A stretch of DNA of 64,000 nucleotides. Source: Halorubrum salsamenti (GTDB lineage Archaea > Halobacteriota > Halobacteria > Halobacteriales > Haloferacaceae). The position numbers and the translations under genes were made by a program. The notes below the pieces were generated by a model. It ran no database searches, was not told the DNA's origin, and was given only the letters and a program-made list of their open reading frames with translations. Location: NCBI RefSeq assembly GCF_007671685.1, contig NZ_VCNL01000006.1:1-64000 (forward strand), in the 5' to 3' direction. Position 1 is the first letter of the stretch. Each line of letters starts with the position of its first letter. Below are positions 24,076 to 28,224 of the stretch, piece by piece.

Positions 24076-25290
24076 ATGAAACGGACGACGGTCGTCGTCG
24101 CGCTCCTCGTCGCGGTCGGCGTCGGCCTCGCGGCCTCCGGCTTCTTCGCCGGGGCGGGCGACGAGGCGCCGCCGCCGACCGTCGAGGAGCCGGCGCCATC
24201 GCCCGTCGACGAGGCGTCGCTCATCGCTGTCGCCGGCGACTACCGTCTCTGGCCGTACACGAGCCGGAGCACCTCGGTCGAGGGCCGGACGCTCGCGATC
24301 AACGTCCTCTTTCGCGCCGACGCGGAGGCGACGCGGACGGCGATCGAGGGGGAGTCAGGCGCCGACTGGGAGGAGACCGAGGCGGCCGAGGCGGCGGCGA
24401 CCGCCGACGCCGAGCGGGTACAGGCGCTCGTCGAGCGCGACTGGGCGGACGCGCACAGCTCGGACCGCTACAGCTACGTCGAGGGGCCGGACGGCGGCGT
24501 CTGGCTGAAGGAGACGTTCGAGCTCCACGACGGCGCGTACCTCGGCGTGCGCGACCACCTCCGGGCGTACGAGTCGCCGGACGGCGCCTACACCGCGGTG
24601 CAGGCCCACGAGGAGTACTACGACTGGTTCCGGCTCCGCCACACGGTGCCGGGCATCGACGACCCCGCGGTCCGACTCGAAGACGAGTTCATCCATGGCG
24701 GCGTCGACGCCGAGGTCAGCCGCGAGTACCGCGGCATCGAGGGCGGATGGAGCGACGGCTGGGTCTCGGTGATCGAGCTGGCGACGCTGGCGACGCTGTC
24801 CGGAGCGCTGCTCCGGCGTCGGACCCGGGCCGCGGCCGTCGAACTCGCGCGCCGTGGGCGGCGGGAAGCCGTTCGACACGCCGACGCCGCGCTTCTCGGC
24901 GCCGCGCTCGCGGCCCTCATCGTCGGCGTTCGAGTCGCGGGGGTCGCGCTGGAGACCGCGTACCCCGAGGTCGGACCGAAACTCATCGCCGCCCCGCTGT
25001 ACCTGATCATCGCGGTCGGAATTCCGGCGCTCGTCGTCGTACGAGCGCCTGATTCGGAGTCGGGCGCGGCGCTCATCGGGGTCGTCGTCGGGCTCGGTGC
25101 GGGGTTCGTTATCGACTTCGCCGCGCTCGGCGTGGCGGTGCCGCCCGATCTCCTCGTCCACCGAGTCGCCCTGCTCGCCGCACTCGGCGTCGTCGCGATG
25201 GGGCGCGCCGCCGCGGACCGCCCGGTGCTCGCGGCGGGGCTGGCGGCGTGGGCGGTCGGACTGGCGCTCCCGCTCGCCGACGTGATCTGA
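24076..25290 (+). CDS. Uncharacterised membrane protein with extracytoplasmic domain
   Basis: 404 residues from the ATG at 24076. An N-terminal signal or anchor helix (KRTTVVVALLVAVGVGLAAS) is followed by a ~200-residue soluble domain (SLIAVAGDYRLWPYTSRS, EGPDGGVWLKETFELHDGAY) expected outside the cell. The C-terminal third has about five hydrophobic segments (ALLGAALAALIVGVRVAGVA, LYLIIAVGIPALVVV, GVVVGLGAGFVIDFAALGV, LAAGLAAWAVGLALPLADV). No family recognised. Longer in-frame starts would overlap the preceding gene in another frame and encode Arg/Pro-rich sequence, so they were discarded. Confidence 0.8.
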   Translation: MKRTTVVVALLVAVGVGLAASGFFAGAGDEAPPPTVEEPAPSPVDEASLIAVAGDYRLWPYTSRSTSVEGRTLAINVLFRADAEATRTAIEGESGADWEETEAAEAAATADAERVQALVERDWADAHSSDRYSYVEGPDGGVWLKETFELHDGAYLGVRDHLRAYESPDGAYTAVQAHEEYYDWFRLRHTVPGIDDPAVRLEDEFIHGGVDAEVSREYRGIEGGWSDGWVSVIELATLATLSGALLRRRTRAAAVELARRGRREAVRHADAALLGAALAALIVGVRVAGVALETAYPEVGPKLIAAPLYLIIAVGIPALVVVRAPDSESGAALIGVVVGLGAGFVIDFAALGVAVPPDLLVHRVALLAALGVVAMGRAAADRPVLAAGLAAWAVGLALPLADVI

Positions 25291-25408: not shown

Positions 25409-27397
25409 ATGACGAGGCAGGTCAGTCGGCGAGAGCTGCTCGCCGGAACGGGGATCGCGGCCCTGAGCGCCGGCTGTCTCGGCCGCACGCGGAACATCGC
25501 CGGACGCGACCGACCCTCCCAGCTGACCCTCGAGATCAACGCCCCGCCCGCCGACAGGGACCCCAACGCGATCCGGATCGCCAGACATCTCGCGGAGAAC
25601 CTGGACGCGGTGGGCGTCGACGCCCGGATCAGCACCCTCGGGCAGACCGACCTCCGGCGGAAGGTGCTCATCAACCACAACTTCGACGTGTACGTCGGCC
25701 AGTTCCGGGAGGCGGAGCCGTTCGATCCGGACGCGATGTACGGGTTCACTCACTCGCGGTTCGTCGCGGAGGCGGGCTGGCAGAACCCGTTCGGGTTCAC
25801 CGACATCAACGGCGTCGACGAGCTGCTCGCGAGCCAGCGCCGTGCGGAGGGTGACGATCGACGCGAGGCCGTGGCGGACCTCCAGCGGACTCTCGGCGAG
25901 CTGCAGCCGTTCACCGTCGTCGCGTTCCCCGACCCGCTTACGGCGGTCCGCGAGGACCGGTTCGAGAACTGGACGAACCGCCAGCCGCTGTCGGTCGGGG
26001 GGCTGCTCGGCTTGGAGCGCTCCGACGCGGCGGGCGGGGACGCGGACGGGAATACGACCGAAAGCGGAGACGAGACCGTCGACGGCGGCACCAACGAGAC
26101 GGCCGGCAGCGACGGGACTGCAGACGGCGGCAACGAGACCACCGACGGCAACGAGACCGAGGGCGGGCTGATCGACGACAACCCGCTCACGGACGGCGAC
26201 GAGGCGGGAGACGCCGCGACCCTCCGATTGGTGACGACCGACGAGCGCATCACCCAGAACTGGAACCCGATCGCCGCCGAGTACCGGCGCTACGGCACGT
26301 TCACCTCCCTGTTGTACGACCGGCTCGCGCTGGTCGACGACGGGGAGGTGATCCCGTGGCTCGCCGCCGACTGGAAGCGGGTCGGCGACGCGGGGATCGA
26401 GATCTCGCTGCGGGAGGCCGACTGGCACGACGGGGAGCCGGTGACGACCGAAGACGTCGCGTTCACCTACGAGTTCCTCAGGGACACCTCGATGGGAACG
26501 ACCGAGTCGCCGGTGCCGACGCCGACGTTCCGCGGCCGTGTCTCAGCCGTCGAGTCGGCGACCGCCGTCGACGAGACGACCGTCCGACTGACGCTCGACG
26601 ATGTCAACGGCGCGGTCGGGGTGCGCGCCCTCCAAGTGCCGATCCTCCCGAAGCACGTCTGGGAGGAGCGAACCGGGATGGCGACGATCGCCGGGTTCGA
26701 GTTCGACGCGGAGACGACCGAGGCCGTGGTGACGAACAACGAGAACCCGATCGGGAGCGGTCCGGTGCGCTTCGTCGAGGCCTCCCCCGAGGAGTCGGTC
26801 GCCTTCGAGCGCAACCCGGACCACTTCCTCGTGCGCTCGGCCGACGGGAATAGGTCGGCCGGTGACACGGCGGATCCGCTCGCGGGGATCCCCGAGCGGT
26901 TCCGCGGGAAGCCGGCGTTCGATCGACTGGAGATCGAGGTGATGGGATCGGACGTCGCGGCGGTGCAGGCGGTCGGTGACGGGCGCGCGGACGCGACCGT
27001 CTCGAACCTCGGACCGGACTCCGTCCCGCGGATCGGACGCGAGGCCGACGCGCGGCTCGTCACGGGCCAATCCGGCGGATTCTACCACGTCGGGTACAAC
27101 ACCCGTCGGGCACCGCTGTCGAACCCCCGGTTCCGCGCGGTCCTCGCGTCGCTGATCGACAAGCGAACGCTCGTCGACGCCGCGTTCGACGGGTACGCCG
27201 AGCCCGCCGCCTCGCCGCTCGCCGCCACCCCGGAGTGGGTCCCCTCGGACCTCCTGTGGGAGGATCGCGAGGCGGATCCCGTCCATCCGTTCGTCGGCGA
27301 GTCCGGATCGCTCGACGCCGAGACGGCCCGCGATCGGCTCCGCGAGGCCGGGTACCGGTTCGACGAGGAGGGGCAGCTGCTCGCGCCGGGGAGATGA
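25409..27397 (+). CDS. Oligopeptide-type ABC substrate-binding lipoprotein with apparently permuted domain order
   Basis: 662 residues with a lipobox (LSAGC, Cys23) after an RR-containing signal (MTRQVSRRELLAG). Residues about 37-200 correspond to the C-terminal segment of family-5 solute-binding proteins: LTLEIN, a DPNAIRIARHLAENLDAVGV helix, FDVYVGQFREAEPFDPD, then the terminal helix pair and VVAFPDPLTAVRE. A Gly/Asn/Thr/Glu-rich linker (205-270) follows, and only then the family's N-terminal lobe (TLRLVTTDERITQNWNPIAA, LREADWHDGEPVTTEDVAFT), ending at LREAGYRFDEEGQL, where the canonical C-terminal segment would start. No permease or ATPase gene is adjacent. TATA: GATATACG, about 30 nt before the ATG. 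The stop overlaps the PAP2 start (ATGA). Confidence 0.85.
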   Translation: MTRQVSRRELLAGTGIAALSAGCLGRTRNIAGRDRPSQLTLEINAPPADRDPNAIRIARHLAENLDAVGVDARISTLGQTDLRRKVLINHNFDVYVGQFREAEPFDPDAMYGFTHSRFVAEAGWQNPFGFTDINGVDELLASQRRAEGDDRREAVADLQRTLGELQPFTVVAFPDPLTAVREDRFENWTNRQPLSVGGLLGLERSDAAGGDADGNTTESGDETVDGGTNETAGSDGTADGGNETTDGNETEGGLIDDNPLTDGDEAGDAATLRLVTTDERITQNWNPIAAEYRRYGTFTSLLYDRLALVDDGEVIPWLAADWKRVGDAGIEISLREADWHDGEPVTTEDVAFTYEFLRDTSMGTTESPVPTPTFRGRVSAVESATAVDETTVRLTLDDVNGAVGVRALQVPILPKHVWEERTGMATIAGFEFDAETTEAVVTNNENPIGSGPVRFVEASPEESVAFERNPDHFLVRSADGNRSAGDTADPLAGIPERFRGKPAFDRLEIEVMGSDVAAVQAVGDGRADATVSNLGPDSVPRIGREADARLVTGQSGGFYHVGYNTRRAPLSNPRFRAVLASLIDKRTLVDAAFDGYAEPAASPLAATPEWVPSDLLWEDREADPVHPFVGESGSLDAETARDRLREAGYRFDEEGQLLAPGR

Positions 27398-28224
27398 GCC
27401 CGCTCCTGTCGGTCGTGAGTTCGCTCGCGCTGTGGGTGGGCTCGGCCCTGCTCGTCGCGAGCGTCGCCATCATCGGACCCCGGCGGCTGTACGCGCTCTG
27501 GGACGACCTCCGCGACCGGCTGTGGGAGATTCGGAAGCCCCTCGCCGCGCTCGTGGTGGTGCTGATCGCGAGCGCGATCGGTCGGGGCTCCCTGCAGACG
27601 GTCTCGGAGCTGTTCGGGCTCCAGCTGACGTGGGCCATCTACGCGCTGGAGGGGAACTTCGTCGCGTGGGTGCAGGCGACGTTCGGCTCTCCCCGGCTGA
27701 CGATGTACTTCTCGTCGGTGTACGTGTACGGGTACGTGTTCCTGCTCGCGTTCCCGTTCCTCGCGTACCTGGCCCTCCCGCGGACGACGACCGTGAAGCG
27801 GCTCGTCGTCGCGTACGCGCTCAACTACGCGATCGGGCTCGTGTTGTACACCGTCGTGTTCGCGTACGGACCGCGAAACGTCATGCCCGACATGGTGACG
27901 TCGCTGCTTTTCACCCACAACCCGGAGTTCATGGCGCTAACCGGTGAGGTGAACGAGCCCACGAACGTCTTCCCCTCGCTGCACACGTCGCTGTCGGTGA
28001 CCGTCGGGACGTTCGCGGTCCTGACCCGGCGAGAGTACCCGCTGTGGACGCCGATCGCCGCGTGGCTCGCGACGAGCGTGGTGATCGCGACGATGTACCT
28101 CGGGATCCACTGGCTCACGGACGTGATCGCCGGGACCGCGCTCGCGCTCGGCGCGGTGTCCCTGTCGTATCGGCTCGTCGACGGGGAGGGGGAGGTCGAA
28201 AACGACGTCGGCAGCGAGGAGTGA
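27394..28224 (+). CDS. PAP2-family membrane phosphatase / lipid phosphotransferase
   Basis: A 276-residue integral membrane protein with about six hydrophobic segments. The PAP2 active-site blocks are present: PSLHTSLSVTVG (the histidine that donates a proton) and GIHWLTDVIAGTAL (the nucleophilic histidine with its aspartate). The form resembles the inositol-phosphorylceramide-synthase-like branch of PAP2, enzymes that act on lipid phosphates; the substrate here is unknown. The ATG at 27394 overlaps the stop of the substrate-binding lipoprotein by four bases, so the two are co-translated. It ends 27 nt from the convergent dsbA-like gene. Confidence 0.88.
   Translation: MSPLLSVVSSLALWVGSALLVASVAIIGPRRLYALWDDLRDRLWEIRKPLAALVVVLIASAIGRGSLQTVSELFGLQLTWAIYALEGNFVAWVQATFGSPRLTMYFSSVYVYGYVFLLAFPFLAYLALPRTTTVKRLVVAYALNYAIGLVLYTVVFAYGPRNVMPDMVTSLLFTHNPEFMALTGEVNEPTNVFPSLHTSLSVTVGTFAVLTRREYPLWTPIAAWLATSVVIATMYLGIHWLTDVIAGTALALGAVSLSYRLVDGEGEVENDVGSEE

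Follow-up and report, generated by a model that had tools for sequence, protein, structure and literature searches.

Gene content and layout of the locus

The window, meaning the whole stretch of 64,000 nucleotides of Halorubrum salsamenti contig NZ_VCNL01000006.1 that was analysed, contains a single open frame at 25409-27397 on the forward strand that encodes a solute-binding protein (SBP) of 662 aa, referred to below as the window SBP, the closest relatives of which come from Halorubrum. The gene lies between two genes for membrane proteins, and the features of the region are as follows.

24076..25290, + strand: conserved membrane protein upstream of the SBP, without a Pfam match (the scan covered 24169-25287); noted from its neighbourhood
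25409..25477, + strand: Tat signal peptide and lipobox with lipidated Cys23, assigned by sequence inspection
25514..26023, + strand: moved segment, corresponding to the canonical C-terminal third (DppA ~356-487 and beyond); Pfam, canonical-only profile, HMM with decoys and PDB search
26024..26206, + strand: low-complexity linker of Gly, Asp, Asn, Thr and Glu between the natural C- and N-termini; sequence and comparison of intervals
26207..27388, + strand: canonical N-terminal two thirds (SBP_bac_5 profile 1-279, DppA ~31-339); Pfam and profiles
27394..28224, + strand: PAP2_3 membrane protein, its start overlapping the SBP stop (ATGA); Pfam and conserved neighbourhood

By inspection, the Tat motif of the window SBP reads SRRELLA and the lipobox SAGC, and both the RR pair and the lipobox Cys are invariant across 32 orthologs, which satisfies the expectation of a conserved export signal. 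A second close copy of the gene was not found in its 3.67 Mb assembly. In all 31 Halorubrum-type loci the SBP gene is followed by the PAP2_3 gene in the same orientation, and this neighbour recurs across haloarchaeal genera, in 21 of the 26 other loci of the window subfamily; it is absent or doubtful in the remaining five (L069 ends at a contig end, and L067 and L091 gave weak matches only). The upstream membrane protein is likewise found in most Halorubrum-type loci, and once in other genera.

Order of the two segments

Residues ~36-205 of the window SBP match the C-terminal third of canonical DppA/OppA-type proteins and residues ~267-660 their N-terminal two thirds, so that the mature chain begins with what is elsewhere its last part and ends at LREAGYRFDEEGQL, the end of the canonical N-terminal two thirds. 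The first-pass annotation had proposed this arrangement as a circular permutation, with the C-terminal family segment directly after the lipobox and the N-terminal lobe after a linker, and each of these elements is supported by profile searches. SBP_bac_5 is the only significant Pfam family for the full-length protein (165 bits), and positions 1-279 of its 368 match residues 313-650 (E 3e-48). When the profile is considered in two halves, as the annotation had advised, the order is reversed, the N-terminal 218 residues alone matching profile positions 291-363 at residues 44-116, with an E-value of 0.0016 that falls below the Pfam curated cut-off, and the rest of the protein matching 1-279. A canonical-only profile of 450 positions, built from 62 haloarchaeal proteins with canonical order throughout and applied to the frames of the retrieved loci, places positions 310-447 at the N-terminal part of the window SBP and then positions 4-316; within the family, 64 proteins come out as canonical with the identical profile. 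An HMM of the canonical C-terminal segment gives 47 bits for the N-terminal part of the window SBP, and each of the 62 permuted proteins scores 19-91 bits in this part, whereas the highest-scoring true decoy among 2,321 reaches 10.8 bits and the highest of 1,240 shuffles 7.4 bits; an entry of 46.7 bits in the decoy set is the window SBP itself under another name and was not counted as a true decoy.

All 31 complete Halorubrum-type orthologs that were examined share the swapped order, as do 26 further haloarchaeal loci of the window subfamily, which answers the call for homologues of the same order. The window SBP shows the homology over the whole mature domain that is required of a member of SBP_bac_5/cluster C; it lacks the canonical segment order and is therefore filed as a permuted variant rather than as an ordinary member. 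What defines a natural circular permutant, namely two segments from one parent family that are swapped with no duplication left, is fulfilled.

Mapping onto known structures

Searched against the PDB, a profile built from this moved segment in 16 permuted proteins matches 1dpp_A at residues 356-487 (E 3.1e-19), and a profile of the remaining part matches residues 31-339 of this chain (E 2.6e-56), the complementary part, which places the cut between DppA residues ~340 and 355. Lobe I of DppA is taken here to comprise residues 1-260 and 479-507 and presumably holds both natural termini; the cut, being outside lobe I so defined, lies in lobe II. No permuted order was seen among the 60 chains listed of the 118 that the full permuted profile matched in the PDB, the N-lobe match standing at the chain start in all 60. 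AlphaFold2 gave a mean pLDDT of 40 for the window SBP, from an alignment of 32 sequences that is too shallow, and of 47 for the ortholog with the shortest linker (L055), also from a shallow alignment. Retention of the two-lobed fold and of clam-shell binding is therefore an inference from homology, made without a confident structure and without binding data.

Permuted relatives and their distribution

The order of segments was surveyed in 128 distinct SBP_bac_5 frames, a sample enriched for relatives of the window SBP and not a census. Canonical order was found in 64, and two frames were partial. In 55 frames, including the window SBP, the chain is broken at what is here called site A (profile ~310-447 first, ~2-310 second), with L159 and L168, counted under this site, breaking slightly earlier. 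Six frames (L097, L098, L118, L123, L124 and L125) are broken at a later loop, site B (~370/410-449 first, ~2-381/410 second), and one, L099, is broken about 25 positions before site A.

The source genome holds five SBP_bac_5 genes, one canonical (L096) and four permuted, and the four permuted proteins fall on separate branches of the tree and are opened at different loops. Besides the window SBP, these are L097 (G000:C18, ~89.6-91.5 kb) and L098 (G000:C15, ~375.6-377.3 kb), both permuted at the later loop with the canonical last ~65 residues first and both in a dpp-type operon, and L099 (G000:C1, ~65.4-67.3 kb), which is broken roughly one helix ahead of the breakpoint in the window SBP and has no adjoining permease. 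A canonical-order fragment at L150:11100-12287 resembles a relative of L099.

Permuted members are spread over many genera of Halobacteria, and two site-A proteins (L189 and L190) come from two genomes of a single genus elsewhere in the phylum. Site-A proteins also occur in Alphaproteobacteria (Ketogulonicigenium, Nitratireductor, Roseomonas, Microvirga and Neorhizobium), where they appear to be secreted without a lipobox and not lipidated. In a Sphaerobacter genome with some 27 SBP_bac_5 proteins, those match pairs that were readable showed canonical order, and scans of viral contigs for further sequences found nothing.

The linker

The 65-residue low-complexity linker that the first-pass annotation had described is present at about residues 206-266, but a linker of this length was unnecessary for joining the natural ends. 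The interval between the two halves, beyond the profile, is 96 residues in the window SBP compared with about 31-57 in nearly all permuted relatives, and the low-complexity stretch is nearly absent in Halorubrum rubrum (L055). On this comparison of sequences, the long linker is best read as a local expansion, a later insertion in the Halorubrum lineage. It bears several N-X-S/T sequons in the window SBP, although glycosylation has not been shown. Contigs of Halorubrum lipolyticum (L058/L062) and H. persicum (L060) end in or near the linker of this gene, the low-complexity stretch apparently breaking assemblies.

Repeated origin and alternative explanations

A tree of 83 proteins, built from the N-lobe only with a quick search and without inferring the root, requires nine changes of order, six of which cannot be avoided given the strongly supported branches. 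By AU tests, a single clade is rejected for all permuted proteins together (p 0.0007), for the site-A proteins (p 3e-54) and for the site-B proteins (p 1e-8), the tested groups having been chosen after the first tree had been seen. Several permuted proteins have close canonical relatives once they are un-rotated. In the clearest cases, L098, L123 and L125 are related in this way to canonical L181 and L188 (66% identity for L098-L188), L150, L152 and L154 to L187 (61-64%), L097, L118 and L124 to L142, L147 and L183 (43-46%), and L189 and L190 to L208 (40-41%). The permutation thus arose several independent times in the family and a single origin is rejected, the count of events being approximate. 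A canonical-order protein on a long branch, L073:6741-8789, lies within the main permuted clade and is possibly a reversion or an error of the tree.

One ancient event behind all permuted members, with the scattered canonical relatives explained as tree errors or reversions, could still be argued from the uninferred root, the quick search and the long-branched rows L073, L127 and L070, and reversions of order are possible in principle. This explanation is nonetheless very unlikely in view of the AU tests, the differing breakpoints and the permuted and canonical pairs that remain up to 66% identical after un-rotation.

Just as improbable is the fusion of two partial SBP genes of different source, which would mimic a permutation. 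In four separate permuted groups, the moved and the unmoved parts have the same nearest canonical relatives, their identities being, for example, 53% and 68%, respectively, for L098-L188, 70% and 62% for L150-L187, and 35% and 42% for L189-L208. Since both parts share these relatives, each of the four groups represents one protein in rotated form rather than unrelated halves joined together. The window clade itself has no close canonical relative, the nearest being 29% identical and too distant for the halves to be compared for congruence, so the origins of its own halves are not directly comparable, and this leaves the fusion some room; yet the segments of permuted proteins are complementary on DppA without overlap, and their two halves are separated by an interval of almost constant length.

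The permutation would have been refuted if the N-terminal segment had turned out to be a domain unrelated to the family, or a further incomplete SBP beside a complete one, and the weak Pfam match of the moved segment might be taken to suggest it. This possibility can be given less credence still, as the 47 bits with the canonical C-terminal HMM stand far above the best decoy, the family-level match to DppA 356-487 reaches E 3e-19, and the C-terminal part of the window SBP lacks the moved segment, so that the first segment is not foreign and no complete SBP accompanies it in the chain. An artefact of sequencing, assembly or frame, for which only the assemblies broken in or near the linker could speak, is hardly credible, because the frame runs on uninterrupted in dozens of species, residues to either side are conserved, and so is the neighbouring gene that overlaps it. 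The foreign domain, the partial duplicate, the assembly artefact and the fusion of unrelated halves are rejected on these respective grounds.

It is accordingly held with high confidence that the gene encodes an exported, lipid-anchored solute-binding protein of cluster C (DppA/OppA-type, SBP_bac_5) with a circularly permuted chain, a reading that rests on complementary halves, their reversed order and the conservation of this order in orthologs. In this permuted protein, the natural C- and N-termini in lobe I are connected, and the chain instead starts and stops at a lobe II loop that corresponds to the stretch from DppA residue ~340 to 355. The standard route to permutants is permutation by duplication, in which an in-frame tandem duplication is followed by loss of the outer parts. 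The likely course here would be an in-frame tandem duplication of the SBP gene, after which copy one lost its initial and copy two its final portion, the signal peptide being either kept throughout or acquired again. In L192:5310-8387, a single frame of 1026 aa contains two complete tandem SBP_bac_5 copies that are 68% identical; this fusion is the predicted kind of intermediate and shows that the first step, duplication, occurs in the family, but does not show it for the window clade.

Gene neighbourhood and possible function

A BPD_transp_1 permease is encoded within 6 kb and on the same strand for 24 of the 55 site-A proteins and all six site-B proteins. It is usually accompanied by another permease and two ATPases, arranged as in dpp wherever the locus extends far enough, and annotated dpp-type operons surround a permuted SBP on three alphaproteobacterial plasmids. 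Because relatives sit in such complete operons, permuted proteins very probably function in import, although there are no binding data. In the loci read, members of the window subfamily have no permease nearby, so that the neighbourhood expected of an ABC importer is missing, and the SBP instead forms a two-gene unit with the PAP2_3 membrane enzyme. That the two are a functional pair is inferred from neighbourhood alone, and a literature search found no published link between a haloarchaeal PAP2 protein and a substrate-binding protein. The window SBP might feed an ABC permease encoded elsewhere, or might capture or deliver a ligand tied to an extracytoplasmic reaction of PAP2_3. A membrane tether that attaches at a different face, as the first-pass annotation had suggested, is plausible for the archaeal lipoproteins; it cannot be the general reason for permutation, since the alphaproteobacterial members look secreted without a lipobox.

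Comparison with known systems

The DppA/OppA/AppA-type SBPs of cluster C (PF00496; E. coli DppA 1DPP, AppA 1XOC) are homologous to the window SBP over both segments, similar in size and exported, and permease/ATPase operons of the same type hold its permuted relatives; their chain ends lie in lobe I, whereas the order of the permuted protein is rotated and its ends lie in lobe II. The sugar-binding TpMglB-2 (Tp0684) of Treponema pallidum, designated 'Cluster Bc', is a natural circular permutant that is lipid-anchored, retains binding and has a crystal structure (PMC4990184). It has, however, the cluster B fold and another breakpoint and is reported from one family, and its permutation would not be shared by descent with that of the window SBP. 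Permutation relations among SBP-like folds, comparable to that of the window SBP, are also known from the CPSARST permutation family of glycine-betaine-binding proteins (2B4L, 1R9L, 1SW1), molybdate-binding proteins and CysB (PMC2395249); these are other SBP-type proteins with less than 24% identity, found solely by comparison of structures. Natural circular permutants of SBPs are rare in the searchable literature, and the open-access literature yielded no published circular permutation in cluster C, most subscription papers lying outside this scope. The earlier impression that no permuted member of the family had been described therefore stands, but the window SBP is not a lone oddity, as the family has been permuted several times independently.

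Implications

A broader reading, for and against which the chances are judged about even, is that permutation is recurrent and possibly favoured in the Dpp/Opp-type proteins of Halobacteria, with at least five to six independent events in two to three loops of lobe II, and that the branch of the window SBP has left ABC transport for the PAP2_3 enzyme. Recurrence of this kind would account for a genome with four permuted proteins of this type out of five, each on its own branch. Annotation with whole-domain profiles reports permuted proteins as ordinary or truncated members, and alignments and trees that are blind to rotation discard one third of the protein. Recurrence in separate lineages, together with pairs that are 66% identical, makes the effect of permutation on folding, binding, lobe closure and permease docking testable with natural material, and turns the family into a naturally occurring test of how proteins cope with relocated ends.
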